NCBI GenBank assembly: GCA_963575745.1
Contig: CAUYUJ010014770.1
Span: 181,598 to 245,597 of the forward strand
Origin: Prorocentrum cordatum
Lineage: Eukaryota; Sar; Dinophyceae; Prorocentrales; Prorocentraceae
Direction: 5' to 3'
DNA length: 64,000 bases
The notes beneath the pieces are model-generated. The model saw only the letters and a list, made by a program, of their open reading frames with translations, searched no databases and had not been told where the DNA came from. Below, piece by piece: positions 1 to 58,714 of the stretch (positions are counted from its first letter, which is position 1; the number at the start of each line of letters is the position of its first letter). The translations under genes were made by a program, and so were the position numbers.

Positions 1-24
1 GGCGTCCAATGGCACAAGCGAAGT

Positions 25-827
25 TCACTTAACACCATCTGGGATGGGTTTAAGCGTGCAAATGTGCGAAGGCTTGTCTCTGATCTCTCTGGGCTTTGCA
101 TAGAAAATAATCTCCGCTGTTACCCAGATGCCACCTCCAAACGTCTCCTCGGCAACGGAATAAACAGTGTGCGCGCAGGGACCGTGAACACATGGGAAAG
201 AATGCACGCCCACGTTTCCCATTTTGATGCTCCCGCCGTAGCGGGGATCCGATGGGAGCAACTGATGGCCCTCCAATGCCGACTGGAGGGCATTCACAGA
301 CGTACCGTGGGACTGTCTGCCCCATCCTGAGGTCGGATCTTGTACCTCCTTACGCTTCTCGCCGTTACGAAGAAGGGCAAAGTGAGCTGCGTGCAGTGCA
401 TGTTCCCCGCCTCGTGGGTCTTGGTCGACAACTTCGCCCAGCCCAGGCGATCAGCAACTGTGGCCTCAGGGCCCTCGCATGATTGATCGGCCTTATTGAC
501 AAAGAATCTTGCCCAATTGGGAACCATCTAAGAAGGATCCAGGAGAGGGGTCTTCGTAGACGTCTGCAGCATCTGATGACCCAACCAAGCTTCTCCTGCG
601 GCATGAACCTGGAGAGTCTTGAAGACTCTGCTGCGGGCCGGATCTTCTCCAGCCGCCACCCGTGCAACACGGTCCTCCTCCCCTGGGTAGCAGTTCGTCG
701 GGCTCATGGGCCTACTAGGCTTGCCGCTCTTCACAGTGAACGGCCGAAGGAAATCGAAGTACTGTGGATCCTTGCTCGAAGGATCACGATAAGGCAATCT
801 CATAGTGCTCTGATACAACTGGTGCAC
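25..827 (-). pseudogene. C-terminal end of the retroelement coding region, unrecognised
   Basis: Three open pieces join here: 528-827, 294-527 and 25-297. The first two share one frame and are separated only by a TAG at 528-530 followed directly by ATG. The third is reached by a frame change near 297. The same frame also continues upstream across a TAG at 843-845 into 843-1211. The final piece has Cys/His-containing sequence (HSFPCVHGPCAHTVYS) and ends in a natural-looking Lys-stop at 25-27. I recognise no family. Continuity with the upstream pieces, and the lack of other coding here, suggest it is the end of the retroelement's last protein. Confidence 0.5.
613..629. repeat. 7-bp triloop hairpin, TGA loop
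   Basis: agagtct and agactct pair perfectly around a TGA loop. It is an AT-richer variant of the dispersed hairpin family, so the family is not just a by-product of GC-rich sequence. Confidence 0.6.
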
Positions 828-842
828 AGGCCAATCGTTCTC

Positions 843-1211
843 CTAATCGGCATTGCTGTTGGGATCACCGCCGACTCTGAGGCGCTTGGGGAATCTCTTT
901 CCGCTGAGCCTGCCTCCCACTCCGGCAAGGCATTTCTTGCGGATGGCCTCCTCCGCCGCTTCGCCGGGCGTCTTGGCGGCCTGTGCACAAGTCACAGGGG
1001 CAAGTAAGGGCTCGCGGGGCGGCTGGGCCGCCCGCTCTTTAGTGACTTCACCCGAAGCGGCTGGGCCGCTGGGTTTGGCAATAGGCACTATCTTCGACAG
1101 CTCTTCTAACGCGGCACACATGCATTGATCGTTTTCCACTCCCTCCGTAGACAATCGGAGGCGTTCCCCTTTCGGGGGCATGCCTGGGCAAAAGGGGAGA
1201 CATCGTGGCAA
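843..1211 (-). pseudogene. Unrecognised retroelement segment (122 codons)
   Basis: An open stretch in the same frame as 528-827, ending in a single TAG at 843-845 after which the frame stays open. It is Ala/Pro/Lys-rich and carries two of the best triloop hairpins (1017-1033 and 1056-1070) inside its coding sequence. No family recognised. It overlaps the end of the 1106-2173 frame, so a frameshift probably joins the two in this decayed copy. Confidence 0.4.
1017..1033. repeat. 7-bp triloop hairpin, TGG loop
   Basis: gggcggc and gccgccc pair perfectly around TGG. A second hairpin of the same family (agcggc/gccgct) follows at 1056-1070. Confidence 0.75.
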
Positions 1212-2173
1212 GAAATATCGATGTTCCCGCCACGCAGAAAACTCCTCGTGCGCGTTTCCTCGTCTGAGAAAATTAATGAATTTGTCCGAGAGTCCGAGAG
1301 CTTGGAATGAATGGCCCCGTCCCCTGATCCGTCTTGGACGGCAGGGAGCCGAAACGGACGAGCGTTGAACGCGGACTTGGGCACGTTGTTCTCAGTGGGG
1401 CTCCACTCTTGCCAGTGCCTGACCAACTCTTTGAAGGTGGCCTCCTCTGCCGTGTGCCCGTCGTCTCGTCTCTTCGTCGAAGGATTACCCCCCGGAACGG
1501 CTGGGCCGCCAGAGGGTTGGCAGAAGAACAGGGCAGCAAGCCTCGCGGCCTTTAACATATGCTCTGCGAACATCTCGGCCGCCTTGCAACTCACCGTTCG
1601 TCCGTCTCTGTCTATCTGGTAATCACTATGTTCTGACAGAAAATGGTAAGAGTCGCCGACGGGGTGCCGCATCTTGCGGTAAAGGCACGCACCGTCAAGA
1701 ATCAGGATGCGCGGGCATACCCCCGCGGCCTTGTAGTCCTCAATCCGGCGGTTCATCTGAGCTCGGACAAGGGTGGCCACGTCGTCCCACATAGGGTCAA
1801 CATCGCAACCTCCATCCGGGGACTGCCAACACCTGTGGCCTCCTCCAATGTGCAAAATCTCGATCGCACCATCAGGCGAACGCTTAACCGCGTCGTCTAT
1901 GATGCGATCAGATGTCTCGAGCATTACTCGGAAGGCTCCAGCGAGAAGCCGCGGGCCCTCGTCCCGCTTCCCTTCGACGCGAACGCCAAGCAAATTATAT
2001 ATCGACTGGTCGGCAATGTCATTAAAGGACCAGAAGACAAACCGCACTGGAGCATGGACCCCTTTCACATAATGCTGACGCCCGTGGCCCGACCATTCGC
2101 GCGACCGGGCGGCTTCCTGAAGGTCGGGGCCTTTTGCAGCCGCCCGTAACTGTAGCGGACGTGCCATGAACAA
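1106..2173 (-). pseudogene. Accessory retroelement ORF, possible SGNH-hydrolase-like domain
   Basis: A 355-codon open frame in the extra 3' part of the copia element. Residues about 43-215 look like a globular domain: a hydrophobic strand followed by SFND (49-52), IGGGH (109-113), ILDGACLY (158-165) and GDSYHF (173-178). SFND resembles the G-x-N-D block of SGNH esterases, and D174-x-x-H177 resembles their catalytic D-x-x-H block. This is family-level pattern matching by eye, and I cannot place the nucleophile serine. The C-terminal third is low complexity. It overlaps the 2022-3641 frame by about 150 bases, so a frameshift likely separates parts of one polyprotein. If the assignment is wrong, this is simply an unknown conserved retroelement domain. 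Confidence 0.45.
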
Positions 2174-3641
2174 ATTCGTTCATGGTGTGTTGGACGTGAA
2201 AGCTTGACGTGACGTTCTTTCTGGCCGCCGTTTTGAACGAGACCGTAGAATCATAACCGAGATGGACAGAGCAATACCAACATTTGTACTTCTTGCTGAA
2301 CTGCATCATGCACAAAGGGTGGAACAAGTCCTTGGGTGGCCGTCCAGTCGCCATCGTGGCCGCAATGTCCTCGCCAACAAATGGGGCCCATGGATGCCCA
2401 CTCTGGCGGGCAACCTGGGTCATGGCCTGGCACTTTTCTTGGAATGACAGATTGCTCGTCCAGGCCTTCAACCGAGGATCAGTCATCTCAACATAAAGCT
2501 GAAGAAACTCGGACACGCGAACCTCCCACTCGCGAGCGGGCGGTTTGACGTCCTCGGCGAACCCGCCCCTGTGCCAATGGTAGTCAAGGACGTTCCAGGC
2601 ACCACGCCCAAGGTAGGGCGGGTCCTTTCCTTCGTCATCGACTTCCAATGGCCCCGGGTCAGGGGGCCCACCTCCGCCGCCGCCCCCAGGGGGGCCACCA
2701 GAGGGCGGAGGATTCCCCGTGGGAGAGCCTCCTGAGCCTGACGGGGCCCCTCCACCACTGGCTGGGCCGGGGGGGGGGCCACCGCCCGCCCCGCCCTCGG
2801 CTTGGCCGGGCGGGGCAGCTGGACTTGAGGCCGACCCAGCGGATGGTCCGCTGGCCGCCTTCCGTCCAGCTCCTCGAGACATGGCCGAGCCGACTGAGTC
2901 GGCCGGCAGCTCCGCTCTCAAGCTTAGCCTTTTCGGCGCCCTGACCGGGCCCTCCCCTTTTTCTATGGGGGGCCCCTCTGGGGGCGCCTCAGGTTCTGGC
3001 TGCTCAAGATCGGCGGGCAAAAGTGGCTTTTCGACAGCAGCGACTGGGTCGTGCTGCTCAGCCTCGGTCTCAGTGATTGGCAGAGAGCGTGGCTTCTCAT
3101 TCGAGCCAACACTCCCTCCAAGACTAGCGCTCGCGAGCCATGCTTGGAAGTCGCAGGGGCGCGAGCGCCGAGGAATCGCCGTGCGCCAGGCCACGGCCTG
3201 CTCGGGGGAAGACTGAAAATAGCTGGCTATGGCTGACTCGGCGAGGGCCTCCTCGACCACACGCACTGGCATGTAGAGGCGGCCCTTAACGACAAGCAGG
3301 GCAAACATAATACCCCATCCGACCCCAGCGGCTTGGCCGCGGGGCGGGGTGTGCATGGAGGGGCCCCAAATGTTCAACCAAACAATAGGGGGGCCCTCTG
3401 TCTTAGTGCCCGCCACTGGGACGCTAACGAAGTCGCCGAATCTCGTCAGACGCCGCTTGGTTGGGCCAACGGTGGGACCTGCGACTTCTCCTCTCTGGAG
3501 AGTGCGGACAGAATGGCCGGCCTGCCCTGGTGTTCTCGTATAACTTGCAGACCATCTTCGTGGTTTCATCAGGGTATGACTGAACATAAATACCCTCAGG
3601 AATCTGCTCAACCGTAAGGGGGGGCGCAATCGAAACGGCAC
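2022..3641 (-). pseudogene. Accessory retroelement ORF of unknown function (539 codons)
   Basis: Two ordered-looking parts flank a long Gly/Pro/Ser linker (about 255-335). The N-terminal part (about 60-175) has hydrophobic strand-like stretches such as GWGIMFALLVVKGRLYMPV. The C-terminal part (about 340-490) is rich in aromatic residues and carries CWYC (454-457) followed by HVQH (482-485), a possible zinc site. No family recognised. Several triloop hairpins lie in the linker (2758-2770, 2796-2810, 2889-2903, 3040-3052). The real frame probably leaves this ORF near codon 490 and passes into 1106-2173. Confidence 0.45.
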
Positions 3642-3811
3642 GTGGCTCCTCTATCGAACGTCGTCAAATGGGTGACCCGCGGGCCCTGCGAGACACAAGA
3701 AAACAGACGTTCAACTTTTGTTTGTGAATTGGCGGCTAAGTCTGTCTTTGACGCGGTAACGACTTGGTCGCCCCTCGAATGCAAGATGTCGCGCCGCCAC
3801 ATTGCGAAGCG

Positions 3812-4093
3812 TCAGCTCCACCCCTTTGTGCGCAGGGGCGAAGCGGCCGTTGCATCGCTAGGTCTGGTCCACGCAGTCTTGGTGGGCCAACAGAGAAAGA
3901 CAGTTTGCTCCTCGTGGGCATTGCGCTTCCCACGAGAGGAGGCGGCTGTCCTCTTGGCAAGCTCATCGTCGTCAGCAACAGCAGGAGCAGCTCTCTTGCG
4001 AGCTGCAATCTCCGCTGCGCGAATTTCAACGCCGCCCTCCATTTCGATGTCCACGTCCATCATAACATCGCTAGGGCTAAAAGGATCAGGCAT
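3812..4093 (-). pseudogene. Short acidic ORF downstream of the methyltransferase-like ORF
   Basis: A 93-codon frame whose ATG overlaps the end of the 4086-6083 ORF by 8 bases. It begins with an acidic stretch (MMDVDIEMEGG) and turns basic. The overlap could reflect an indel that shifted one long reading frame rather than a separate gene. No domain recognised. Confidence 0.3.
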
Positions 4094-6083
4094 TCTCCAT
4101 ACCGGCTGGGCCGACGGGATAGCGCCCCCACTCGGCTGGGCCGATGGGGGCGCCTTTTTTTGATCCGGCTAGGGCTTCGTCGCCATCGGACAAGTCCGAG
4201 GCGGGTTCATACATGAGATCATCCGAGCAAACGTAAGTAACATCTTCCCCCGACGGCTGGGCCGCTGGAATATCCGGCGGTTGACCCATGGGTTCAGCCA
4301 GTGACCAATCGGGCGCGCGGGGGCCGCGGCAGGCGAGGCCCGCGCAGCCGCAGCGCGGCGGCGGCGCGGTCCGAGGGGAGGCCGGCCGGCAGGTGGCCCG
4401 CGCAAGCTCCGGAGACAAAACGGCAGCGGCACACATGGAATTAGAGGAGGAGACAGAATGATGACGAGATGACAACATGCGCTCAGCAGCACGAGCAACA
4501 ACAAGGTGAACTTGCTGGGCAAAAGCATCAGTATAATCTTCTGCTGACTTACAATCCTTGCCTCTGGCCTCAACATGCTTATGCGTGCCGTCGCATCTGC
4601 GCTCGAGCCCCTCAATCACGTCATGAGAAGTGGATGCAATCTTCCAGGGCTTTTTCATGAAATTACCCTTTCTGTCCCTCAGACCATGCGCGCACCCATG
4701 CAAAGCCGTTCTGACAAAACCTAGCTCTTTCATGAACTCTTTCACCTGGGGGCCCCTCCAATAATTACACTGAGTAGGCCACTCAAGACATACTGCACCC
4801 CCCGCTTTGTGCACTGCACGGGCAATCTCACGGAAATTCCAAAACAGATATCTGAAGTCGGTCCTAATCCCTCGAAGCCTGCGCATCGCTTTATGATTTC
4901 CAGTGCGAAAATAGTGGGCTTCATTCACGTATTGCCAGGGGGAACCACCCGTACAGGGCATTGAGTCCCATAGAGCTATGTGTTGTCCTTTGAACTTCTT
5001 ACTATCATTTAGAGCCAATCTTTTTCCCTTATCGGTTATCATGTCCTCTTTCGCCGTGTACTGTACCACCTTACAAGAATTATCAGCGAAATTCCAGGGG
5101 TTACCAATCCTGCTCTCAGGGCCACAACAGGATTCTAATAAGAGTCGATCCCCGTTCCACTGGGTGGCCGGGGCGCAATCGTCCCAGATCCAGAATTCGG
5201 TCCAGCCGGTCCATCTACTTGGATGATAGCCGCCATCGCTGGAATCGCCATTCGGATTCTGCTCAAAGGGGTGATGATATTTTACATCTTCACCACGCCA
5301 GTTATCCGTGCGGTCAATTGTGAAACCATGGCGGACGTTGATCGCATAGGTACGACGCTGATCGGCTAGTCTGTCTGGGTCAACTGGGCAATCTATATTC
5401 ACGGGCGTAAGCGTGACAAGTCTTGGAACGAAGTGCCAACGTCTAAGGCTCTTTCCGTGTAGAGTCCAGCGATCCTTCTTATTCTGTAAGTTAGCAGCAG
5501 AAGCAGGGGGAAGGTGAGGAAGAAGAAGGTTGTAACCAAGCGTGTCTTTTTCTTGCTCGGTGTTAACTGGCTCAGGTGGTGATTGCTCATCACATCTCAT
5601 TCTTGACAGATCCGATGCATCAGACTCACTTTCGCTCTCAGTGAGGTCAAACATCGCTCTCATTTCAATCTCCTCCTTTGACCTGGGTTTATCGGAGCTT
5701 CTCCTGGAACCTTCTCTTTTCGTAACAAGAGTAGTTGTACCCGCTACCACGGCTTGGCCGGGTGCGTTTGCCACCGCGGCTTGGCCGGGGGCAGCCGGGC
5801 GCCTGGCGCCGTTCGGTGCCGCTGGGATGTTCATTGGTTTTGGGGAATGCACAGCGGGCCTACCCTTCTTAAGACGCTTCTTATCATTATTCATCTTTTC
5901 ACTAGGTGCAGCAGCTCCTCTCCGCAAGGCCGAACTCGGACCTAAGCGGGGCTTGAGAATCCCCCCGGGTTTCAGGGGGGGGCCGTCTGAAAACGTCGAG
6001 TCCAAGTAGTCTTGGTGCCGCAGGGCGGCCCAGAACTTGGGAGTCACTATGCTGACAATATATAATACCTGAACCCAGGCCAA
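4086..6083 (-). pseudogene. Pol C-terminal extension with methyltransferase-like domain
   Basis: A 665-codon frame that continues directly from RNase H: upstream of its first ATG the same frame reads AADIGTKRFTDPL, the copia RNase H end, after an in-frame TGA at 6120-6122. Residues 1-290 are basic/Pro-rich linker and Ser/Asp-rich sequence. Residues about 295-525 look like a Rossmann-type methyltransferase: LLLESCCGPESRIG (314-327, motif I-like), an acidic YTAKEDMIT (342-350), SMPCTGGSPWQ (374-384, resembling the Pro-Cys motif IV of cytosine-C5 enzymes) and CLEWP (432-436, ENV-like). A basic KKPWKIAS stretch (477-484) follows. Capture of cytosine methyltransferases by dinoflagellate retrotransposons is published; whether this domain belongs to that family is inference. 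The C-terminal 130 residues are low complexity. Confidence 0.6.
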
Positions 6084-6505
6084 GGGGTCTGTGAATCTCT
6101 TCGTTCCAATGTCGGCAGCTCATTGCGAGTCCGTTCGCACTTAAGTTCCACGATGCCTCGGGAAAACTGTTCAGATACTGCGGCAGCGTCTATGCGATGA
6201 GCGCGCGGAAGGTGCATCAGCTTCATGGGCCCTCCTGCTTTAATGACCTTGCAAACTGCCTGGTTATCTTCCAAGAAAAGGCAACGCATCTGTCGTCCAA
6301 GCAATACTTCCCAAAGCGGAAGAGCTGCAAGCAGCTCTTTTCGAAGGGCAAGGTCGGCAGCCACGATATCAGCCTCAACTATGGGAAACACACGTCTGTT
6401 GCTGAGATCCCATAGATTGACCTGCTCTAGTGTACGGGCCCCAAATCGCTTGATAACTGGCACTCGTGCTCCTGTGCGTTCGGATGTCACTGGCCAGATC
6501 CGCAT
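6047..6505 (-). pseudogene. Copia RNase H, C-terminal half
   Basis: A 152-codon frame whose residues about 40-120 match copia-type RNase H: VEAD with a candidate catalytic Glu at 44, a helix ending ALPLWEVLLG, LFLEDNQAVCKVIKAG with Asp80, and LPRAHRIDAAAVSEQF. The last catalytic region (AADIGTK) lies in the next frame, just past a TGA at 6120-6122, so an indel near 6135 and a stop interrupt the domain. RNase H removes RNA from the RNA-DNA hybrid during reverse transcription. This copy cannot make it in one piece. Confidence 0.8.
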
Positions 6506-7184
6506 CGGAGTATTGCTTCAACAAGACATCCTCCATTCTATCTCCTACCCATGATGACATGCGGTAGTGAGAAGTACACTTGGTATAACAAATGAGGCGG
6601 AACAGATCCATGCCTTGTTGCTCTGTCCATGTGGTAATGCAGCTCGCTGTATGACAAACAGCGCGGAGAAGGTCATATCGAGCCACTCTTGCACCGTATA
6701 GGGTCTTCGTCAAGACTTTCGCCGCAATGGGCTGGAGCACGCCCGACTGGGTCGGCGGCTCCGGGTCGCTGGGGCTGGCCGCTGCGGCGTCGAGGCCATG
6801 CGCGACTACCTCTTGGTCAGGGGGCCCAACGTCAACGCTGATGTTCAAGGCTAACGCTATGGCCTCCTCCGCAGGAGGGCAAACTTCGCCTCGAGGCCCG
6901 CCTTGGCCGTCCTCGAGGTCAGCAAGTTCGGGGCCAAAAGGAGTGCCTGCAGCAGGATACGTAGACGGGTCAGTAGCTGTGAGCAGGGCATATAATGCAA
7001 CACAGGAATCGAATAACTCAGTCATGTCATACTCTATGACCCTGGCCTGTTTGGGTTCTCTGGGTTGGCGTGGCTCAGGCGGCTGGGCCGCTGAGTCACC
7101 CCCCGTTTCCTCTTCGGCACTCTCGTCTGGGACGGATGCGTTCTTCTTAACTTTAGGAGGCGGCGGGTCCAATATCGCGGGCAA
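6375..7184 (-). pseudogene. Copia reverse transcriptase connection and RNase H start
   Basis: A 269-codon frame. After a Pro-rich N-terminus, residues 48-70 (RVIEYDMTELFDSC) and 148-185 (GVLQPIAAKVLTKTLYGARVARYDLLRAVCHTA) match the region between palm and RNase H in dinoflagellate copia elements. SDADLASD (226-233) holds the first RNase H aspartates. Low-complexity linkers with triloop hairpins (6743-6755, 7078-7092) sit between these blocks. The frame then passes to 6047-6505. Confidence 0.75.
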
Positions 7185-7189
7185 CTCAC

Positions 7190-7353
7190 CTTGCCACTCG
7201 ACAAGCTGTGTGCTCGCATCCCAAATATCGTCCGACCGCTGTCGGGGGGTCTATCTTTATACCTTTGGGGCACTTGGGAGATGGGGATTGCAGCAGCTTC
7301 CATCCTTGGGGTAGCTTGTCGGCAGGACCTGCCAACTTGAAATCATCAACTTA
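7190..7353 (-). pseudogene. Copia reverse transcriptase active-site segment, stop at YVDD
   Basis: The frame of the 7351-8226 ORF continues after its stop as VDDFKLAGPADKLPQGW. The codon before VDD, which in copia enzymes is the Tyr of Y-V-D-D, is TAA (7351-7353). The two catalytic Asp codons (7342-7347) are intact. The domain is lost as a recognisable frame by about 7200. Confidence 0.8.
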
Positions 7354-8226
7354 GAAAATCAAGAAGTGTTGTAACTCAGTGTGAAAATAACAGCTGCGAC
7401 ACGGGCTGCATTTGATAAAACCATTGGCCGCAACATGCCCTTCGCAAGGTTGCTCCAAATACCCCCCTGAGTCAGGGTGCCCGTACAAGGATAAAATCAA
7501 TGGGCATACGGGATTGCGCATATGCGACCAGGACTCGGGCCACTCTTCGCGGGGCAGAAACACCCATGTCGGGGTGCCACCCAGCCTTGATTGAGTGTAG
7601 GCCTGACGGGCGTCGGCTTGTTCAATACTATGACCTTCAGAGAGCCCGTAGGTGTCAGCTGCTTTGCTAGCCTGCATTGTAGCAGGGCTGCTGGAAAGCT
7701 CCTGAAACAAAGCCGCATCCTTATTCTGATCTCTCACGCTGGAGCCGTCGAAGACTACCCGGCCCTTATATTTACGATCTTTGTGTCCTAGCGGCAGCTC
7801 GGAATTCTTCTCGACAAGGACCGCGAACAGACAACCAAAGTGAGCAGTCCTTCCTTTGAGTTCTGCAACGACATCAGCATATTCTTTTACGCCTTTCTCG
7901 CCCCATGTGCCTATTTCTCGCAATCGGTCCCATTCTTTCCTCAAAGCGGCCGTGGCATCTTGGTTAGCCTGGGCTTCGGCTTTGGAAACCGATCGCGCCA
8001 CGGCGGCATCGATCCGAGTCTGTCGCCATTCATTGGGGAGTTGGAAGGGCTCTTCAACAACTGAAATGAAATCAGTAAAAGGGTTGTATAGGTAATCCAA
8101 ATCAAATATTTCTTTTTCGCGGTGACCTGCCATTGGAGCCGAGCTATGCTGCAGCGGCATCCGAGGCACGCTTCGCCGCGACGCGGCGGCTGCCGGACTC
8201 GAGGTCTGGCTAACCTCTTGTGTCAC
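7351..8226 (-). pseudogene. Copia reverse transcriptase (RVT_2), fingers and palm
   Basis: A 291-codon frame. Residues 90-115 and 125-175 are the finger region (KYKGRVVFDGSSVRDQN). IEQADARQAYTQ (201-212) carries the first catalytic Asp at 205, in the place of the usual S/A-D-V-K/R-Q-A-Y. LYGHPDSGGYLE (247-258) is the conserved L-Y-G-x-x-x-S block. The frame ends one codon before the VDD motif. Reverse transcriptase copies element RNA into cDNA. The ATG used is only the first in the frame; the polyprotein would enter from upstream. Confidence 0.85.
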
Positions 8227-8304
8227 CTCAGATTCCGCATCAGATAATGGATCCCTGCCGACTTGGCCGGAGGGGTCCCCATCACGTGCGATAGTCCCAC
8301 CGCG

Positions 8305-9810
8305 TCAAGTTTGCTTCCACCAAACATCCTCATCATCCGAAGAATAATCTTCTGAGTCTTCGTCCACGGAGGAGTCGGTGGCCACAGCTGCGGCTTGGCC
8401 GCCCAATGCCGCCTGTCTCCGAAATCGCTCAACTACCCATGGAGCGGCTCTCCTCGCCTTTGGGCGTGTCGCAAGATAAGCAGCATCTTCCTCAGATAGT
8501 GGACGAGCCGCGGCTGGCTTGGCCACCGCGGGCTCGGGTGGAGTCGCTGGGATTTCCACGCCCAAGCCTATATCGCGCAAGAGGGCAAAACAAGGGCCGG
8601 GGTCGTCAATGCCAAAGAATCCTTTCTTTTCGGCCTTGCATTGCTCAACGGCCGCTCGGCGTTGGGCCTGATTCATGTTAAACCAGCGTCCGGGATGAAT
8701 GCCAGGATTGGTGGATTCAGGCAATTTCTTGAGCCATTGGGCACCGTGCTTTGGATCTGGGTCTGCAACCCACACTCGAGTCACGGAAACGTAGTCGGGA
8801 TCGTAATAAAGTAGAACTCGTATGCTGCATGTCTTTCGACGACCTGTCAATGGAAGATTTTGTGTTAGCTCATCTTTCGTTAGACCAGCGGCAATACGTC
8901 GATCCTCATCGTATTCCATCGTATCAGGGTTCTGAGTCGCGCGAGCAAGGAGCTGCCCTTTCCCTGGAACTCTTTCGCGCGGCTTGGCCGCCGAAAAGTT
9001 AGATTGTCGATCCGAGCGGTGCTCACTATGAGCGAGACCTAACTTCTGATCTTGATCTTCATCTGGGCGAGAGTCTCGCTGTGGGCCCCGACCGTCAATG
9101 ACCACGGGCTCGTCGTCCACGCGCAAACCCCCTGGGCCGTCGTCATCGCCGGAATCGGCCTCGGAGTCTGGCGGTGGTGCGTCCTCGCCTCCTCGGGGAG
9201 GCGGCGGCGTAATCGCGGCGGGGTCCTCTGCACAAAACGGATGGGCCGATTGTGCTCCTGCCCCCTGCCCCGAACCGTCTGGGACGGCCACGGCTTCGCC
9301 AGCGGGAGGGGTCGTAACGGAGCGCACTTCAGTCATCGCCTTCCCGTGCGATTTCCTCATGGGAAACTGTGGCGATTGGTCATCAGCAGTGCCATCTAGG
9401 ATGTTGCTATAGACTAGATCGGACTTCTCAATGGTGGGTCGCTTGCCTTCAGGCGTGCACCCTGATTCCATGTTAAGTCCGTCTAGCAGTCTAAGCGGCA
9501 CTACATAGCTCTCTGGACCACCCAGACCCCCCGCTTTGTGTACATACCGTAGGTAGAATCCAGGAATCATCGTACCACCAGTCTTGGCGGTCCGAAATCT
9601 CGACTCTGGCGGGGGCACATAACGCACAAGGGACCCGAAGGGAAGAAGCGGTGCCTCAAACTGATGTCCAAAGCGACGCTCCCAACTAGACTTCCCCTCT
9701 TCAGGGGCCCTGGCGTTGTAGCGGAGACAAAAATATCTGACGGCATGCGTCCAGTATGGCGGTGGAAGACCGGCCTGCATAAGAAGAGCCCGGGTCCCCA
9801 TCTGTACCAC
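8305..9810 (-). pseudogene. Copia integrase C-terminal part and linker (501 codons)
   Basis: The first 140 residues match the end of the integrase core and the segment after it: MGTRALLMQAGLPPPYW, then a Cys-containing helix, SSWERRFGHQF and PFGSLVRYVPPPES. The catalytic Glu (AAAERANG) lies just upstream in the same frame (about 9820-9835). After residue about 150 the protein is acidic and Pro-rich linker, then a second ordered block (about 330-450) of unknown type. Integrase inserts the cDNA into host DNA. Triloop hairpins at 8390, 8979 and 9275 fall in linker. Confidence 0.8.
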
Positions 9811-10144
9811 ACCGTTTGCACGTTCAGCTGCAGCGTTTTGTTTCTTGTTTCCTGGGATGGTAGGATCATGGGCAATCTTGAGCTCGCAACATGCCCTTGC
9901 ACGCTAGCGCGCACCATCTGTATAGCAATATTCTAACTTTTCTCCCGGGGCTTTCAGTTGCTGGGTCGCGAAAAGTCACACACGCGGTCTCATCGTGGAG
10001 CCCCCGCGAGAGTTCATCCATCGCAAACCAATGATCCATCGTCGTCAGGTGTCCGAACGAAGTGGGGTTAGCGTATAGGCGGGGAACCTTCAGCCCTTCG
10101 TTGCGCGCTTTGCGCTGCTGTCGTCTGAGAGCTTTGGCCCATTT
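9811..10144 (-). pseudogene. Copia integrase catalytic core, broken frame
   Basis: No single frame is open, but two frames together read the core: TSFGHLTTMDHW (first Asp, near 10030), LHDETACVTFRDPA, then after a one-base shift near 9940 YCYTDGA (second Asp), a TAG, and ACCELKIAHDPTIPGNKKQNAAAER with the catalytic Glu near 9830. All three D-D-E residues survive, yet a TGA, a frameshift and a TAG separate them. Confidence 0.75.
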
Positions 10145-10378
10145 TCATACTGAACAATACGGGTTCTTGGGAGTATGAGTTAGGAGATGCGCGAGGGAGG
10201 CTGCGACCGTCTTGAGTCGCTCGGAAAGGGAATCCGACACCTCAACCTCTGCATCATCTGGGTCTTGGTCTGACGGTGCGTCGATGTCGACTAGGTCGAC
10301 ACCGTCAGCGTCTCCAACTTCACCCCCCTCGGGCCCGGGGGCCGCGTCGCACGCGTCGGAGTCCAACCCGTGATCCAT
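10145..10378 (-). pseudogene. Integrase N-terminal zinc-binding segment
   Basis: A 77-codon acidic frame ending SLAHLLTHTPKNPYCSV-stop-KWAKALRRQ. In copia integrases this is the His-His-Cys-Cys finger (H-x3-H then C-x2-C). Here the position of the second Cys is TGA (10145-10147), one base away from TGC or TGT. Confidence 0.65.
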
Positions 10379-10390
10379 GTCGCAGGGAAG

Positions 10391-11020
10391 TTATCCTGAG
10401 ACCCCGTGCCAACAAGGGCCCTTATATGCGGCTGCGCAGGCCACGGCTTGGCCGGGCTGATCGTCGGCCCCGCCGACGGCTCGGCAGTGGCAGGGCAAAG
10501 TCAAGAGACATTTGGAGGCAGCGATGCCGGTGGGTGTCCGAATCCAACCGCATTCGCTAGCCTTGCGATGCGAATAGTAGAAATAAGTAATGGTATCCGC
10601 AGGGTCTAACGAGGACGGAAAAACGGGCGCGAACTCAGCCGGCCGTCCGTCAACATAGCTGTGGTTTCCGATCAACTCATGTGTACGCAAGTCTATGGTT
10701 ACGCGAGTCTGAACAGCATGGGGCGGAGGCCCCCCCGCCGATTCCACATCATCCAGAAATGTCTTGGCGCCTGGCGTCACGCAACGCCACCGCTCGGGAG
10801 TTTCACCCTCCCCAGCAGCAACCGCGCACATCCACTGATCCAGCGCCTCTTTGCGAGAAATGGTCAAGCATGGGATCTTGCCCTCAACGATCAGGTCCAC
10901 TCTTTGACCGTTGGGCAACAGAAGGTCGGGCCTTCGGCCTGCTGGCCAGAAGAAGCTAAAGCCGCGATCCATGCACCGCTCTCCTACCGAGATTACGCGC
11001 GGAGTCTCCGGCATGACCAA
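10391..11020 (-). pseudogene. Protease C-terminal region and linker
   Basis: A 209-codon frame. Its first 60 residues (TPRVISVGERCMDRGFSFFWP) match the stretch that follows the active site in dinoflagellate copia proteases. The remainder is linker of unknown role toward the integrase. It is in a different frame from 11066-11572. Confidence 0.6.
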
Positions 11021-11065
11021 TGCGTTAAAACTACCACCCTTACATTTGGGCCATGCGATGCGAAC

Positions 11066-11572
11066 TTAACCGAGGGCTTTTGACTCTCCCCCGGCAGTAT
11101 TCAGAGTGATCGATTGCGGGAGCTTTCGAATCAATCTCATTGCACCTGCACTCTTAACATATCTTTCCGCTATAAAGTTATACCCGCACCCCGTGCCAAT
11201 GATAAAGCTCAGCGCTCCAAGATATACAGCTTTCTTGTCTGTACATCCCGCAGCGGCTTCGCCGTGTGGGCCCTCTTCCCCCTCCTCGGTCCTCAACCAA
11301 AGGTGCCAGACATCATCTTGCAGGTCTGATGCCTTGATTAGGGCCTCCGCAGCAGATGCTCTCCACTGGGTGGGCAACTGCTGACGCACTTCATCTGGGC
11401 ACTTCCACCTGTCTTCGCCACTCGAGGGCAACTCTCGCAGGTCGTGGCGACGCGCCTTCCTACAAGTGATGGCGGGTTCCGCAGTCGAGGGGTGAAATCG
11501 GACGCGGAATTTGCACCGGCCCTTTGTCTGTGATCGAATGCAACTCTTGCTGGGGGGGCCCTTCCAATGCAT
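11066..11572 (-). pseudogene. Retropepsin-like protease with altered active site
   Basis: A 168-codon frame. Residues about 116-140 read VYLGALSFIIGTGCGYNFIA, where retropepsins have a hydrophobic run then D-T/S-G. The catalytic Asp codon is GGC (Gly, 11195-11197), one transition from GAC. The protease would normally release Gag, integrase and RT from the polyprotein; this copy should be inactive. The preceding 90 residues are Gag-protease linker. Confidence 0.7.
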
Positions 11573-11920
11573 CTCGATAGCGCCCCGAGCAAGAGGGTGC
11601 AGGAAATTGGCAAGACAAACTTACGAGACTCTCAACTTGCTCCCTGCGTTCGTGGAGGGACTCCCCACTGGAAGAGTGTTTATCAACTCCTCTGCTCGCA
11701 TTTATAGAGGCCCTTGGAAAATGACGGCCGGCCTGCTTCTGCCCAGGAAGGCCCCGAACTAACGGGGCAGGGCACGCTGACGCGCCCAGGCTGACTGGGT
11801 CAGTGGACACATTCCTGCCCCCCCGCATTCGGCTTGACCGACGCGGGCGTCGCCGCATCCATCTAGCTAGGAAGGCAAGACATATCATCCTTAACAAAAT
11901 TATGTCAATCAGCTCGTCTG

Positions 11921-11943
11921 CACTGGCGGCGTGGCCGCCAGTG
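11921..11943. repeat. 10-bp perfect triloop hairpin, GTG loop
   Basis: cactggcggc and gccgccagtg pair over 10 bp around GTG. It is the longest uninterrupted stem of the dispersed family. Confidence 0.8.
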
Positions 11944-12044
11944 CCGAGCCAGTGCCACGGATGGTCGGGCGTGGTCTGAGCGAACCAACAGTCCTTCCCA
12001 CGCGTGCACTTTCCCGTTTCCTTGAAAGAGCGACAGATCTTACC

Positions 12045-12093
12045 CTTGCTTTTGCCTTTGCCTTTGCCTTTGCCTTTGCCTTTGCCTTTGCCC
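12045..12093. repeat. Hexanucleotide repeat encoding Gly-Lys run
   Basis: CTTTGC/CCTTTG units in tandem; on the minus strand they encode the Gly-Lys run of the nucleocapsid-like segment. Confidence 0.85.
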
Positions 12094-12274
12094 CCATCAT
12101 TCCAGCGTCTCTCCGAACTTGAGCTGGCGGCCCCAGAGCCGCCACCCCCCGCGGATGAAGAGACATTGGCAGCAGCGGCATTGGCTGGTTTTACAGTGCG
12201 CTCATATCCCAGAGTCTTTCCCGCGTTGAGCTTGGCTTGTTCGTACTTGTCACGCTTGAGCTTGTCTGCGTCGG

Positions 12275-12946
12275 TCAAGGCTCTGCGTTGCCTGTAGCAG
12301 CCGTCCTGGGATCCACGGCATTTCTTAGGATCACGTGAGTAAGGGTAACACGGCAACTTGCTCTGTTGTTCGCGCGAACGATCGGATTGGCTCCTAGTCC
12401 GTTGCTGTGCGCCTTTTCCACGGCCACCTGCTGGGGTCTGAGATCTGCTCCGCGCCTTTCGGCCTCCGCCTTTCTAGGGTTCTCAGACCTCCCTCTGGAA
12501 CTCGAATTTTGAGCTGGGGCAGCGTTCGAGTTAGCCCCCGCAGCCGGCTGGGCCCGAGCGGCAGCTTTGGGCTTCTTATCATTAAACGGGCAACCCTGAC
12601 CCGCATGTGGGCAGGTCTCTCCCTCACGTGCAAATTTGCACGTTGTCTCGCCCTTCGTCGCTCCACTCTTCATAACAACTGTGGACTTCCCGAGGCGCGC
12701 TGCCACCGCTGCCGCAGCGGCTTTGCCGTTGAGGCCTCGGCGGTTATCGTTGCCGTTGCCTCCACCGCCGCCCAAGCGCGCCTGTTGAGCACGTTGGTTC
12801 AAAGTACCCTCCTGCAGATTGATGTTCCACTCTTCCTTCTCGCGCAACATCATCCATTCAATCTGGGTTATGAGCCATTCATAGGTTTTCATGCCTGTCC
12901 CTGGCTCGTCAGCAGACAGATCATAAAAATGACAGATCAGGTCCAA
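12275..12946 (-). pseudogene. Gag C-terminal region with Cys-rich finger
   Basis: A 223-codon frame. Residues 1-45 (DLICHFYDLSADEPGTGMKTYEWL) match the last helices of dinoflagellate copia Gag. A Gly/Asn/Ala linker and CKFAREGETCPHAGQGCPF (C-x8-C-x6-C) follow, a CCCH-like finger whose final His is not evident. Gag packages element RNA. The frame overlaps 12356-11460, consistent with an indel. Confidence 0.6.
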
Positions 12947-13230
12947 CTTCTTTGGATTCCTTCATTGCTCAATAAAGTGTGCATGGGTTGAAGCTCGCAT
13001 CTCATCAGACGGAGGTCGCACGCCTTAGAGTTGCTGACGCACGTCTGTCCACTCATTTCAGAAATGGTACAAATCAGCATCGGGCGATTGGGATCAATAA
13101 CAACCTTGAAAATGCCACGCGAAATGCGATGTTGACCCAATTCCGATCTGACTGAACACCAATCGCAAATGGCCCGTATCATTTCGCGCCCTGTTAAGAG
13201 TCTCCTCTCATTCTGGGCGCCGAATTCCAT
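12937..13230 (-). pseudogene. Gag core continuation
   Basis: A 97-codon frame with NERRLLTGREMIRAICDW, which matches the middle of the copia Gag core after the 13194-14213 segment. After about 45 codons the match is lost and the true frame appears to shift before 12946. Confidence 0.45.
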
Positions 13231-14213
13231 GCGAGTGATCTGTTGAAAGAAGTGAGTGTGATGAATGGAAAGATTGCGATCCCTACGTATTTGTTGAATT
13301 TCTCAATCAAGTCAGTGGCGATCATGATGTCGAGGCGTCGGAAGCGACCCGGGTCTCTAAGCTGTTCTTTAGCCACAGTGGTTTCCATGGCTTCCGCGAT
13401 CCAAAGCTGTGCTTCCTGAATCTCAGGAGACGATCCAGCCACAGCACGGACGGCGTGCATCTGCCACTCCCGTATGTTTGTAACATCGGGAATGTCCATC
13501 AGATCGACCTTCTGGTTGTTCCCAACCTGTCTCCACTGATCCAGAGGGGTACTCTCGTCAAGACCTCCCGGGCCATTAGGCCCGCCTGGGCCCTGGGGCC
13601 CGCCGCGGCCGCCTCCGCCACCTGAGGATCCAGAACCCCCCGGACTCCCTGGAGGCGGCTTCTCTGACTGGTCTCGGACGGCATGGGCGAGTGCTGACAA
13701 GATCTCGGTACTTGGTGCGGCACTATGATCATCCCCATCATTGCTCTGCCCTGCCCCGCCAGGCGGCGTGGCCGCTGGCGTATAATCCTTACCTCCACCC
13801 GGCACCTGGGCCGCTGGCGGCCTCTCTGGTCCCGCCTTGGTGAAAGGATGATAGTGAACAAGGGTCATGTCATCAACGATGCCTGTCAACTCGGTACTCA
13901 TGGGCACACCGTTCCCGGAGATGCCGGGCTTGGCCGGACCTCCGGTGGAAGGGCCAGGGATAGTAAAATGGGGTTGTATGACTGGCCTCACGGGCGCCTC
14001 CTGTGCAAGCTGAGGTATATCGAACTGATGGGACCTGGGCAGCTTGTCCAACGCTTTCTCGATAAACTGGAAAGATTCCATACCCATAGTCCTCGTCATC
14101 TCTTTAGCCCTTTCGTTCAAGGCCGCCTCACGGTCAGCAGCTTGCAATTGAGACCGCACATGTTGCTCTTTCTCTTTCGAGGATTCAGTGATGGCAGCCT
14201 TGAGCTCCATCAC
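13194..14213 (-). pseudogene. Gag core, same frame as the upstream coiled-coil ORF
   Basis: The frame continues from 14214-16688 across one TAA (14214-14216). Residues 1-40 extend the upstream coiled coil. A Gly/Pro-rich linker (about 150-215) precedes IPDVTNIREWQMHAVRAV and RFRRLDIMIATDLIEKFNKYVG, the start of the copia Gag helical domain. There is no ATG at the very start (GTG follows the stop, then ATG), so this is most simply one protein split by a point mutation. Confidence 0.65.
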
Positions 14214-16688
14214 TTATTTGTCTGATGCAGCTGCGCGTGCCGACGCTTCATCTTTCTCACGTAGGTTGGCAGCTGACCTTTCTGAGCTCAATCGAAGCTG
14301 TTCCTCAGCTTGCTCCTTCACCCTTTGCATATTGCACTTGTCAGCGTAAATATCATCGAGGAGCTTCTCCTGTTGGGCCCGAAAGTTGGGATCAGCGCTA
14401 TGTCGCTTCCATTGTTCATCCCACTCCGCCTGTTCCACGGGCGGGCTCTTTCGTTGAGTGCAAGCGACGCAGCGCTTCGTGCTCATATCGAAACGGTTTT
14501 TACAGCTTGGCGATCCGCAAGTGGCGCATGATCCGACCTTCGGATTCGAACATACTGAACAATTTTCGTCAGTGACCCCTCTCGCGGGCTGCGGCTGCTG
14601 GGTAGCTTTTACCCGCAACGTTGGCGGCATCCCGCCATCTAGGGGCGCCGAGCTAGGCTGGGCCTGCGACGACGTGGCACCAGACGGCTGGGCCGCCGGT
14701 GATGGTCGTCTGCTCGCCCCTGCCAGCTTGGCCGGCAGGCGCGCTGCGTCACCTAACTGTATCCGCCGAAGCGATGCCCTGGCATGTTCATGCGACTTGA
14801 GCTCTTCTCGATACTGATTATTCTGATCAACTGCCGTCGCAGCTATAGTCTGTGCACTGGCCGCTTCTAGCCTGGCAGCGCAAAGTTGGTCTTGGAGCTC
14901 CTTTCTTTCATGTTCTGCCTTGGCTATCGCGGCCCTCTCCCCTTGCATTCTCGCCGCCGCAACAGCGGCGCAGGCGAACTTGGCATCTATAGATTGACTG
15001 TTTGCCGCCAGGGCAGCCCGTCGTCCAGAAGATAACGCTTCAGCAAACCTGTTCTCGGCTTCTTCCGCACGCTGCTGGGCAGCCGCGGTCTGATGGGGCA
15101 CTTGTTCCATCAGCTCCTGTTCCCGCCGACTGGCAGCTTGGGTCAAGGCGATTCTGTCAGCCTCGAACCTCTCCTGAACATCGGCAATAACTGCATTCGC
15201 CCCCTCTCGATCCAGTCGGGCCTGTTCGGCCCTCTGGGCTTCTAAGACCACGGTTTCTTGCTGTCTCTTAGCCCCCATGATTCTGGCCTGATCCTGCATG
15301 GCTTGGATGAAGAGGCATTGGCAGCTATGTTCCTCCATCTGGAAGCAATCCTCACGCAACCATTGATTGCCGCAATTGGGACACGCGTCAGAACAGTGCC
15401 CACGCACTGGGCGCTTGCAAGGTTCCCCCTGTTTGTGAGCTTTCCCCGGGCACCTGTTCTCCGCCTGGGGCGGGCAATTAGGGCCTGGAATCCAGCGCGC
15501 CTCGCGCATGGAAATGGCACTGTTGCTCCTCGAAGTCGAGCGGGCACCAGATCGTGGGATCTTGGGCCGCCCCCTGCTCGAAGCAGACGATCGAGGGCGA
15601 GCGCGCGTGCTCTCTGGTGGCTCGGCCACCTCTCGAAGCGCCCCATCTCGTTCATCCTGTTCAATCAACTCTGGGAGTGAGGCTGGGGGATCAAACGTAT
15701 CATCGCCCTCAACTACCGCGGGCACTGACGGCTGCCAATCGCCTGGGGCGACGGCAGCCCGGTAGAACCCCTCCTGAACCGGGGAAGCATTCAAATCATA
15801 ATATTCGTTCCTGTGCTTCTCATGTTGAGGAGCTGGCGTTCGACCCGTGGTCTCCCGGTCATGCTGTACATGATGTTGGGAACTCATTTCAACCTCTGCC
15901 GCCTGGGGCGGTACCTCAGCGATTGGGAGAGTGGGGGACGGTAGCGATGTTCCCCATGGCTCATGTACCGCTGGGACCTCGCGGTCTAGGTCGCTGACCG
16001 TGGTGTGTAGATCTGGTTCCGCAAGTGCCTTCCCAAGAGCTTCCTGGTGATCGTAGTCAATGGTCTCCTGTCCTGGGGATGACCTTCCGTCCGGGACGGG
16101 ATGGTCGGCAGCGTTCATCAGCGGCAAAACTCGGCTTGGTGACATTTGATAATCAACGTACTCCATGTCAGCTTCCATCGAGTTGACATCGCCCTTGTCA
16201 TCAAGCTGTTCGTCGCTGTCTTGACCGGGTTGCCCGTTCAAGGCTATCGGGGCGGGGTGAGTCCCGTGCGGACGACCCCAACCGTCTGGGACGGCGGGGG
16301 GCGCACCGCCGGACTCCTTTACGTCTCGCGACCTACTGGCTGGGCCAGCGGCCAGCTCAATAGAACGCATGGCAATCGGGCTGGAATGTAGTGTTTCTGA
16401 GGACTCAGCAATCCAAGATGAAAAGGCTCTTCGCCTGGCATTAACGTCTGGGCCGTTCCGCCTTATCGGGTCTGGGGTCTGTTCACGATCTCTGATCGGA
16501 ATACGAGTGGGAGAATCATTTGCAGATGAATCTACGACTTCTCCCGCTACCCTTCCACGATAAACCCGAATAGGAATAAAAGAAGGAAGAGAGCGGCCCT
16601 CCCTTGGGCCGCTGTCCTGTTGTTCTTGCCCGTCTCGGTGCACATCATGTAATGTCGCGGGCAATTCGGCTGTCTCATCATAGCTCAT
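14214..16688 (-). pseudogene. Gag-type N-terminal protein with two Cys clusters and coiled coils
   Basis: The longest open frame of the window, 824 codons from ATG at 16688. Residues 1-400 are disordered, Ser/Pro/Arg-rich. Cys cluster one (405-458) includes CSDACPNCGNQW and resembles a zinc-binding module. Residues about 465-640 form a long Ala/Gln/Glu coiled coil. Cys cluster two (710-743) reads NCSVCSNPKVGSCATCGSPSC and is finger-like. A second coiled coil (about 775-824) runs into the TAA. Coiled-coil N-termini would help Gag assemble. No triloop hairpin falls in the coiled-coil codons; they lie in linkers. This is the probable start of the element's translation, but I see no clear promoter upstream. 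Confidence 0.7.
15731..15758. repeat. Nested hairpin: 6-bp outer and 5-bp inner stem, TGG loop
   Basis: gctgcc/ggcagc encloses, with an asymmetric internal loop, tcgcc/ggcga around TGG. It is the most elaborate member of the hairpin family. Confidence 0.65.
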
Positions 16689-39087: not shown

Positions 39088-39123
39088 CTTGTGCCAAAAC
39101 GGCTTGAGCCAAAATGCCTACGG
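39088..39123 (-). promoter_or_regulatory. Tandem relic spliced leaders
   Basis: Read on the minus strand, 39123-39103 matches the 21-base core of the dinoflagellate spliced leader with one change (ccgtaGg instead of ccgtaGc, then cattttggctcaag). Directly adjoining it, 39102-39088 reads ccgttttggcacaag, matching the last 15 bases of the leader at 13 positions. A leader cut at its internal AG and re-capped by a new leader gives exactly this arrangement. It marks DNA made from trans-spliced mRNA, not a leader RNA gene. Confidence 0.8.
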
Positions 39124-53635: not shown

Positions 53636-53639
53636 GACA

Positions 53640-54985: not shown

Positions 54986-55004
54986 TGACTACCCTGCACC
55001 GCGC

Positions 55005-57665: not shown

Positions 57666-57669
57666 ATCC

Positions 57670-58628: not shown

Positions 58629-58714
58629 CGGGCTACGGCTGTAGTCTAAAAGGTTCGGCGACGGAGGACATACAGTGCTACGCCCCTCGGGGAATTCCAC
58701 CGACTGCCGAATAT

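Follow-up and report, generated by a model that had tools for sequence, protein, structure and literature searches.

Why should a single retroelement carry dozens of small hairpins built to one plan? The question is raised by a copia-like element of Prorocentrum cordatum that fills at least 16 kb of the 64,000-nt contig stretch analysed here (the window), with the minus strand as its sense strand. Homology to genomic copies covers window positions about 2450 to 12985, plus 12794-16729, and the element, whose 3' end falls outside the window, appears to run on beyond window base 1, a hairpin being located at 35-47. Its recognisable parts are as follows.

1..16729, minus: internal part of the hairpin-bearing copia-like element (homology to genomic copies; reverse-transcriptase (RT) copies)
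17339..17664, minus: outermost 5' homology to copy L042, without hairpin-model match; possibly an LTR or 5' UTR
14217..16688, minus: first long ORF, 824 aa, in gag position; no Pfam match
11463..12961, minus: segment with CCCH-type zinc-finger motifs, split over two frames in the window copy
8308..9903, minus: ORF directly ahead of the RT ORF, start integrase-like by eye
7354..8304, minus: RT ORF, copia type, 119 homologues

Some of the RT homologues carry a precomputed PF07727 assignment, which identifies the ORF as a copia-type RT; the ORF itself gave no Pfam match at E≤0.1. Compared with the genome it gave, among 3765 candidates, 125 scored matches, some of which resemble duplicates. The start of the preceding ORF presumably belongs to an integrase, judged by eye, and neither a Pfam scan nor a protein homology search of this ORF returned matches. 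The 824-aa ORF is probably gag, a function assigned from gene order only. The zinc-finger segment matched PF00642 at E=4.9e-4 with 20.4 bits, slightly below the 20.5 cut-off. Among 27 sequences searched over this segment, several of which miss it, a CCCH-like pattern was found in 15, the window copy having no match, and a CCHC pattern in none. Rfam gave no match at the gathering threshold across the 64 kb.

The original prediction had counted at least 17 hairpins with TGG or TTG loops and stems of at least 5 bp, far more than expected by chance. The excess is in fact stronger than claimed: between 35 and 16348 on the plus strand there are 19, against a mean of 0.75 and a maximum of 4 in 100 dinucleotide shuffles. 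With any loop, the same interval holds 50 perfect triloop hairpins of at least 5 bp (TGG 15, TTG 4). The loop and its C-G closing pair had been described as fixed, and this holds for 18 of the 20 hairpins with TGG/TTG loops in bases 1-16690; it is slightly overstated, since the hairpin at 3026 is closed by G-C and that at 2846 by A-T. Since TGG/TTG is the plus-strand view, we chose sites as CCA or CAA loops on the sense strand, with a C-G closing pair and a 5-bp stem. These 41 sites are given below from 5' to 3' of the element, loops in brackets; all entries are from the site list except the further matches, "copies" stands for genomic-copy alignments, and "model" for a match to the model derived from the sites.

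16336..16348, minus: CTGGC[CCA]GCCAG; model
16282..16294, minus: CCGTC[CCA]GACGG; model; 5/5 lower pairs including G-U
15899..15911, minus: CCGCC[CCA]GGCGG; model
15739..15751, minus: TCGCC[CCA]GGCGA; model; 5/5 lower pairs including G-U
15667..15679, minus: CACTC[CCA]GAGTT, weak; not refound by model
15461..15473, minus: CCGCC[CCA]GGCGG; model
15071..15083, minus: GCTGC[CCA]GCAGC; model; 5/5 lower pairs including G-U
14723..14735, minus: CCGGC[CAA]GCTGG; model
14684..14696, minus: GCGGC[CCA]GCCGT; model
14654..14666, minus: CAGGC[CCA]GCCTA; model
13925..13937, minus: CCGGC[CAA]GCCCG, weak; model, 14.1 bits
13756..13781, minus: further model match outside the 41 sites, 18.4 bits
13589..13601, minus: GGGCC[CCA]GGGCC, doubtful; dropped from model
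12544..12556, minus: CGGGC[CCA]GCCGG; copies, model
11822..11847, minus: further weak model match outside the 41 sites, 16.3 bits
11791..11803, minus: CTGAC[CCA]GTCAG; copies, model; closing C-G changed to T-A in L025, L026, L028
11362..11374, minus: CCCAC[CCA]GTGGA; copies, model
10443..10455, minus: CCGGC[CAA]GCCGT; copies, model
9275..9287, minus: CCGTC[CCA]GACGG; copies, model
8979..8991, minus: GCGGC[CAA]GCCGC; copies, model; compensatory changes in two lower-stem pairs
8514..8526, minus: GTGGC[CAA]GCCAG; copies, model
8390..8402, minus: GCGGC[CAA]GCCGC; copies, model
8251..8276, minus: further model match outside the 41 sites, 18.5 bits
7123..7135, minus: CCGTC[CCA]GACGA; copies, model
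7079..7091, minus: GCGGC[CCA]GCCGC; model
6743..6755, minus: CCGAC[CCA]GTCGG; model
6575..6587, minus: TATAC[CAA]GTGTA, weak; copies; not refound by model
5776..5788, minus: CCGGC[CAA]GCCGC, 27-nt repeat unit; copies, model
5749..5761, minus: CCGGC[CAA]GCCGT, 27-nt repeat unit; copies, model
5156..5168, minus: GCCAC[CCA]GTGGA; copies, model; 5/5 lower pairs including G-U
4511..4523, minus: TTTGC[CCA]GCAAG, weak; copies; not refound by model
4253..4265, minus: GCGGC[CCA]GCCGT; copies, model
4132..4144, minus: TCGGC[CCA]GCCGA, top-scoring; long lower stem, -27.9 kcal/mol, z -5.73; model
4102..4114, minus: TCGGC[CCA]GCCGG; copies, model
3759..3771, minus: GCGAC[CAA]GTCGT; copies, model
3328..3340, minus: GCGGC[CAA]GCCGC; copies, model; 5/5 lower pairs including G-U
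3040..3052, minus: ACGAC[CCA]GTCGC; copies, model; 5/5 lower pairs including G-U
2883..2908, minus: further model match outside the 41 sites, 18.6 bits
2797..2809, minus: CCGGC[CAA]GCCGA; model
2758..2770, minus: CCGGC[CCA]GCCAG; model
1497..1509, minus: GCGGC[CCA]GCCGT; model
1329..1341, minus: CCGTC[CAA]GACGG; model
1057..1069, minus: GCGGC[CCA]GCCGC; model
1019..1031, minus: GCGGC[CCA]GCCGC; model
35..47, minus: CCATC[CCA]GATGG, AT-rich lower stem; model

The 68 CCCAG sites are bimodal by number of pairs (one pair at 38 sites, two at 2, three at 3, four at 11, five at 12, six at 1 and seven at 1); the bimodality is less sharp at the 51 CCAAG sites, of which 29, 9, 3, 6 and 4 have one to five pairs. 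From 16.7 to 64 kb, the stem-length distribution at these motifs mostly tails off smoothly, with a 73-bp tandem repeat as the sole cluster. Above 13.5 bits, the model matched solely the element's sense strand in 100.7 kb scanned. Spacing (40 model sites plus 8263) has a mean of 408 nt and a CV of 0.92, which is near random and gives no spacing rule. The whole stretch of the element seen here carries about 40 hairpins of one design, all on the sense strand.

That design extends beyond the upper stem. A bulge on the 3' side, mostly of 1 nt, is followed by about 5 further pairs, and this lower stem played no part in site selection. Watson-Crick pairing in it reaches 51.7% when one 3'-side base is skipped, 45.3% with two and 29.7% with none, and along the diagonal from -6/+9 to -10/+13 it is 46-58% against 25% expected; skips of 1, 2 and 0 occur in 152, 71 and 54 hairpins of the near copies. 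When 40 sites are aligned, 79.0% of cells are paired compared to 56.4% after shuffling, the upper stem being high by site choice, and 130 of the 200 lower-stem cells are paired. Covariation is 0.564, compared with 0.183 after shuffling and 0.13-0.26 after sliding. RNAalifold on these 40 sites returned the upper stem alone, and at 22 of the 41 sites no more than 3 of the 5 lower pairs can form. G-U is in modest excess over A-C in the lower stem (22 against 9 for the window, 165 against 134 for the near copies). The original prediction meant covariation between sites. Comparing copies at a single site also reveals clear covariation in the lower stem (41 double-change cells at 22 homologous sites, 1-19 when slid); the upper stem is mostly invariant and its covariation weak (11 double-change cells spread over 5 pairs, where slid controls give 3-9 cells over 3-8 pairs).

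Further information was obtained from the genomic copies. In 20 of them, CCA/CAA hairpins with stems of at least 5 bp number 1-14 per 10 kb on the sense strand and 0-2 on the antisense strand, and the model gave 324 matches at E≤1 (300 among the matches listed). Most hairpins are kept at homologous sites, so the comparison of related copies proposed at the outset came out in favour of conservation. Upper-stem third codon positions diverge by 0.052 compared to 0.170 at base-matched positions, and none of 5000 resamplings was as low; lower-stem third positions are not slower (0.175 vs 0.190). Five other copia elements of the same genome, with one 6-kb stretch scanned in each, showed no such sense hairpins.

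The copies also differ in the loop letter. Near copies favour CCA (218) and CAA (145) among all triloops, the next reaching 44; in far copies TCA ranks top (28), while TTA and TAA each number 12. The far copies form a sister clade in which hairpin loops mostly begin with T, a preference that is absent outside hairpins. At third codon positions, the far majority is T at 7 of 9 hairpin sites and at 3 of 21 non-hairpin sites with the same motif (Fisher p=0.0017, an optimistic value since related copies are not independent). The T fraction at loop base 1, hairpin versus non-hairpin, is 0.06 versus 0.29 in near, 0.02 versus 0.36 in mid and 0.79 versus 0.37 in far copies, and 0.62 versus 0.27 in far copies fetched later. 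In the far clade C persists in part of the loops, with C/T counts in hairpins of 10/37 and 6/10.

These computational observations bear on several explanations of how the pattern arose. An origin as a by-product of codon bias and of protein sequence (codons for P, Q and K in motifs such as AAQP and PGQA) would account for the loop frames: among 36 hairpins in ORFs, 21 loops are in frame 0, 15 in frame 2 and none in frame 1, and they almost always encode P, Q or K. However, the codon-preserving shuffle named in advance by the original prediction retains the protein and loses the hairpins. With 13 ORFs, some overlapping, and CCA/CAA loops counted with any closing pair, 36 hairpins with stems of at least 4 bp face a mean of 3.2 (maximum 11 in 300 shuffles), and 17 with at least 5 bp a mean of 0.76 (maximum 5). 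Together with the slow upper-stem third positions, this makes a protein-sequence origin highly improbable. We give equally little credence to a very small mobile hairpin unit, repeatedly inserted, as suggested originally. Small gene-inserting palindromic repeats exist elsewhere, and hairpin number does vary at one place, 5749-5788, with two in the window and three, spaced 27 nt apart, in L036, L037 and L039. Yet that difference arises via an in-frame 27-nt repeat, not a 13-nt unit, and it is the sole exception: stems vary by site, the site alignments inspected differ chiefly by substitutions and a few small deletions with no hairpin-sized inserts, and 13-nt inserts would shift the frame, whereas 36 sites are in open frames. 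A selection-free mutational or copying process (RT template switching, quasi-palindrome correction) that generates inverted repeats centred on CMA in a single strand, template switching being also among the original ideas, would naturally give the strand bias and the variable, often perfect stems. It would not predict slow upper-stem synonymous sites, a lower stem that covaries below a 3' bulge, or a parallel clade change of loop letter limited to hairpins, and we regard it as very unlikely. Sense bias, the bulged lower stem, slow synonymous sites, conservation among copies and the clade loop letter argue for selection on the sense RNA rather than for scars or mobile palindromes, in line with the leading original idea of selection on RNA structure, perhaps for packaging or processing.

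What, then, would be selected? The loops could let the genomic RNA dimerise through kissing contacts, as Ty1 RNA does (PMC5454406). From their letters, CCA, CAA, TCA and TAA are unable to pair mutually over three bases, and this reading is quite improbable. A more serious competitor, still clearly short of an even chance, is that an element or host protein reads the hairpins for a different purpose, be it export of the long RNA from the nucleus, its stability, control of translation, or RNA processing. All the structural evidence fits it equally well, and the sites lie in the coding region with the protein sequence respected. A host reader is hard to square with the use of different loop letters by two element clades of one genome; the 6-kb stretches scanned in five other copia elements also lack such sense hairpins.

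By computation, one hairpin design recurs about 40 times over the length of the sense RNA: a triloop ending in A (CCA/CAA; in the sister clade mostly TCA/TAA) is closed by C-G on an upper stem of 5 bp, below which a 3'-side bulge, mostly 1 nt long, leads to a lower stem of some 5 bp. It is tempting to propose that a single RNA-binding protein reads all sites, as this is the simplest route for many separate loops to change to the same letter. The reader would most likely be one of the element's own products, and the segment with CCCH-type zinc-finger motifs is the first candidate. Multivalent binding would then single out the full-length RNA to be assembled into the particle of the element, a role that operator-like stem-loops play in RNA phages. 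We hold the chances about evenly balanced that the hairpins are such protein-binding sites marking the RNA for packaging, and packaging seems the likeliest use of the putative hairpin-protein contact.

Several known systems resemble this array. The iron-responsive element and the Roquin CDE triloop also combine a short stem and a small loop with protein readers, and the former has a bulge at fixed distance; they differ in loop, bulge side and setting, being mRNA regulatory sites and not arrays of dozens. Dispersed packaging signals of viruses are often hard to spot in sequence, whereas the motif here is explicit, covarying and lettered differently by clade. The coat-protein operator and operator-like stem-loops of ssRNA phages (Qbeta, MS2) have in common with the array a last-A triloop on a closed stem and many copies per RNA. 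According to PMC12724129, the Qbeta operator, printed as AUGCAUGUCUAAGACAGCAU, has a C-G-closed triloop on an 8-bp stem, the last loop A being needed for the coat-protein pocket. In our reading, AUGCAUGUCUAAGACAGCAU as printed leaves one stem A unpaired on the 5' side. A review puts the operator and operator-like loops of its Qbeta model at 33, operator-like loops being found throughout such genomes (PMC10610835). The far clade shares the C-UAA-G tip with the Qbeta operator. The hairpins of the element bulge on the 3' side, mostly by one base, rather than leaving a 5'-side base unpaired, and their carrier is an LTR-type retroelement.

The dispersed packaging-signal hypothesis for RNA viruses holds that many stem-loops share a feature recognised by coat protein; the accessible text speaks of families of viruses and of Gag-like proteins that were repurposed, with no mention of retrotransposon genomes (PMC6281560). 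In Ty1 and Ty3, Gag recognises retrotransposon genomic RNA, a likeness that may extend to the present element. Ty1 packaging determinants lie near the 5' end, where Gag binds a pseudoknot for which no packaging role was demonstrated (PMC4974528); by contrast, the sites here are spread over the whole part of the element seen, which counts against the packaging reading. The literature searched (titles and abstract starts, with few subscription papers) yielded no comparable hairpin array in a retrotransposon.

In summary, it is a coin-toss judgement, in our opinion, whether this is an operator-type hairpin code, read by the element's own protein, rewritten in one clade by a coordinated loop-base change, and convergent with that of Qbeta. 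Since the motif is plain from sequence, occurs in two letterings and is present in many genomic copies, the rules of recognition and their co-evolution are directly testable. The array also offers a handle on RNA handling by the very large retroelements of dinoflagellates. If the code reading is true, protein-RNA co-evolution would be recorded at dozens of sites in one genome.

The copia-like retroelement whose internal part occupies 1-16729, and which appears to run on beyond base 1, is rich in small hairpins with a three-base loop. In a window with a GC content near 59%, we found 19 perfect TGG/TTG hairpins with stems of at least 5 bp between 35 and 16348, against a mean of 0.75 and a maximum of 4 in 100 dinucleotide shuffles, so the abundance claimed by the original prediction was borne out. 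The codon-preserving shuffle that it had proposed agrees: over 13 ORFs, with synonymous codons shuffled and the protein sequences kept, 36 hairpins (stem of at least 4, any closing pair) were observed against a mean of 3.2. The long ORFs and the reverse transcriptase (RT) lie on the minus strand, where the loops read CCA or CAA, and the closing pair is C-G in 18 of the 20 CCA/CAA hairpins. Of the 68 CCCAG sites, 38 have a stem of a single pair, 5 a stem of two or three pairs, 23 one of four or five pairs and 2 a longer one; in the rest of the window the motif declines smoothly with stem length, save for one 73-bp tandem repeat. Loops of 2, 4, 5 and 6 nt gave no class comparable to the triloops, the hairpins follow no regular spacing, and Rfam and tRNA scans returned no matches. 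Loop starts inside ORFs (1329-16348) fall in codon frame 0 in 21 cases, in frame 2 in 15 and in frame 1 in none of 36.

The hairpins extend below the upper stem. Among 43 sites picked by loop and upper stem, Watson-Crick pairing at four lower-stem positions reaches 51.7% when one base is skipped on the 3' side, 45.3% when two are skipped and 29.7% when none is. A set of 41 sites came from a slightly different filter and shares 40 of them with the 43. There the pairing diagonal spans five positions at 46-58%, against 25% expected, and positions one further along it likewise pair above expectation; thus the bulge is mostly, not always, one base. At 19 of the 41 sites the lower stem has at least four of five pairs, G-U included. 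A 40-site alignment pairs in 79.0% of its cells against 56.4% when shuffled, with a covariation score of 0.564 against 0.183 shuffled and 0.13-0.26 slid. Its high upper-stem pairing arises because the sites were chosen by that stem; the lower stem, which had no part in the choice, pairs in 130 of 200 cells, including G-U. RNAalifold alone returned the upper stem and not the lower one, and RNA folding of eight sites picked as good examples gave z-scores from -2.38 to -5.73.

The RNA model R1 was built from 40 of the window sites, site 13582-13607 being left out because it aligned out of register. Scanned over both strands of the window and seven control loci (100,652 bases), it gave 43 matches up to E=5. 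Forty-one, every one of them on the minus strand, lie in the window element within 28-16354: 37 of the 40 building sites, as expected by construction, and four new ones. The two outside are weak (13.5 bits in the copia element L030, 12.8 bits at window position 60113). None of the controls, which are one 6-kb stretch from each of five other copia elements (L029-L033) and two contigs from bacterial metagenome-assembled genomes (L034 and L035), held an R1 match above the 13.5-bit level. The stretches of these five elements, which are assumed to be distinct lineages from their differing Pfam match ranges rather than from a tree, carry no sense and four antisense hairpins with C-closed CCA, CAA, TCA or TAA loops and stems of at least 4; L031 has seven CAG-loop hairpins, four of them from a repeat. 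As the control for other DNA we used the 47 kb of the window outside the element together with 30 kb from other elements. The RTs encoded by L034 and L035, contigs binned as Kiritimatiellae and Chitinophagia, are 42-48% identical to that of the element, and these relatives are probably eukaryotic contamination. No relatives of the element were found in the viral contigs, phages and plasmids searched.

Other features of the window are as follows.
1109-6119, minus strand: three long ORFs downstream of the RT (677, 542 and 357 aa between stop codons)
39103-39123, minus strand: match to the dinoflagellate spliced leader with one mismatch, seen in none of 100 shuffles
44695-46171: 73-bp tandem array adjoining a 1.1-kb GCTGAG array
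52489-60054: CGA/CGT trinucleotide arrays, several in number and about 0.5-0.8 kb long, which run in both orientations and give long repetitive ORFs

The three ORFs have no Pfam match, and copia-type elements do not usually carry such cargo; in one of the ORFs the string PCTGGSPW faintly resembles a DNA methyltransferase motif. The motif at 39103-39123, which we take to be a spliced-leader relic, suggests a retroposed trans-spliced mRNA nearby. The 73-bp unit holds AGTTC[CCA]GAACT, the sole CCA-hairpin cluster outside the element, without a lower stem.

The RT ORF was searched against the 4.128-Gb genome (21,875 contigs), where 125 matches were scored among 3765 candidates, some of them apparently duplicates. 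Across 20 copies, the sense strand has 1-14 CCA/CAA hairpins with stems of at least 5 per 10 kb and the antisense strand 0-2; an antisense series was rejected, at 0-2 per copy. The far copies L025, L026 and L028, a sister clade, have 3, 1 and 3 such sense hairpins. Hairpins of this kind are also present in another six copies and in a gag half.

Between near copies and the window, 0.052 of upper-stem third codon positions (39 positions) differ, against 0.170 at base-matched third positions elsewhere; a value as small as that of the upper stem did not arise in any of 5000 resamplings. In the lower stem, divergence at third positions is not clearly reduced (0.175, against an unmatched 0.190), so that pairing rather than sequence is apparently what is maintained there. 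The original prediction also described both arms as changing together from one site to another. Between aligned copies, counted at the 22 of 41 sites within the region covered by the copies, the lower stem has double changes in 41 cells, spread over 13 pairs, and the six slid controls have them in 1-19 cells over 1-9 pairs. For the upper stem the signal is weak, at 11 cells in 5 pairs, the four slid controls giving 3-9 cells in 3-8 pairs.

In the alignments seen, those around 7085 and 6749 being covered in part, most differences between homologous sites are substitutions and small deletions. Two hairpins lie 27 nt apart at 5749-5788 of the window, and three with the same spacing stand in L036 (4541-4600), L037 (4811-4870) and L039 (4518-4577). 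A repeat of 27 nt, which keeps the frame, accounts for the difference in number and may be a way in which hairpins are gained. Some hairpins of L025 and L026 have no alignable counterpart in near copies and some in the gag half L042 are absent from the window; hence both gain and loss occur. About 600 bases at the element's 5' end (16730-17338), between two matching blocks, are unmatched in L042 and possibly represent an insertion.

The main point of the loop-letter comparison is that the T bias reverses its sign between clades. Near-copy triloops with stems of at least 4 are led by CCA (218) and CAA (145), the next loop having 44; in L025, L026 and L028, TCA leads (28), followed by TTA (12), TAA (12) and CCA (11). 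The far-majority comparison comprised the 13 hairpin sites that satisfied the majority criteria. At third codon positions of the motif, most far copies have T at 7 of 9 sites inside hairpins against 3 of 21 outside them (Fisher p=0.0017), and over all third-position C columns in 151 of 571. At the four frame-0 hairpin sites, in which this substitution is nonsynonymous, C is kept at two, with G at one and T at one. An alignment-free count, leaving out stems of exactly 3 pairs, gave T fractions in hairpins versus the stemless five-base motif of 0.06 versus 0.29 in near copies, 0.02 versus 0.36 in mid copies (L022-L024, which are near in the triloop and far-majority counts, with L036, L037 and L039) and 0.79 versus 0.37 in far copies. 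In another three far copies, added once the pattern was known, the fractions were 0.62 versus 0.27 (16 hairpins, p=0.009). As the copies are related, the loop-letter p-values are optimistic.

Loops that share a letter and change together in one lineage are what a single reader would produce. We propose that one putative element-specific reader protein recognises all the hairpins; an element-specific reader is favoured because the loop letter varies between clades of a single genome and because the sites are missing from the sampled stretches of other copia elements. The gag region contains CCCH-type zinc-finger motifs, PF00642 falling just under the cut-off. The CCCH-type pattern is found in 15 of 27 sequences and CCHC in none of the 27; a classical CCHC knuckle is present in two of the seven control loci (L029 and L031), the others of which may not cover gag. 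These motifs make the CCCH-type gag segment a candidate hairpin reader and a lead to follow.

In phage Qbeta, the operator has a triloop, the last A of which occupies a pocket of the coat protein (PMC12724129), and 33 operator and operator-like loops are modelled as contacting the shell (PMC10610835). The element's hairpins resemble the operator in being triloops, many per RNA, and it is by this analogy that their role may be judged. Packaging would then have roughly an even chance of being what they serve, while other protein-mediated steps in its place would have about a third. Among the papers listed by searches for retrotransposon or dinoflagellate hairpin arrays, titles and the openings of abstracts mention no such system, most subscription papers lying outside that coverage. 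The parts are of known kinds, namely hairpins in RNA to which a particle protein binds and a copia-type element. What appears to be new is the combination of a hairpin array with a copia-type element, together with its readable recoding.
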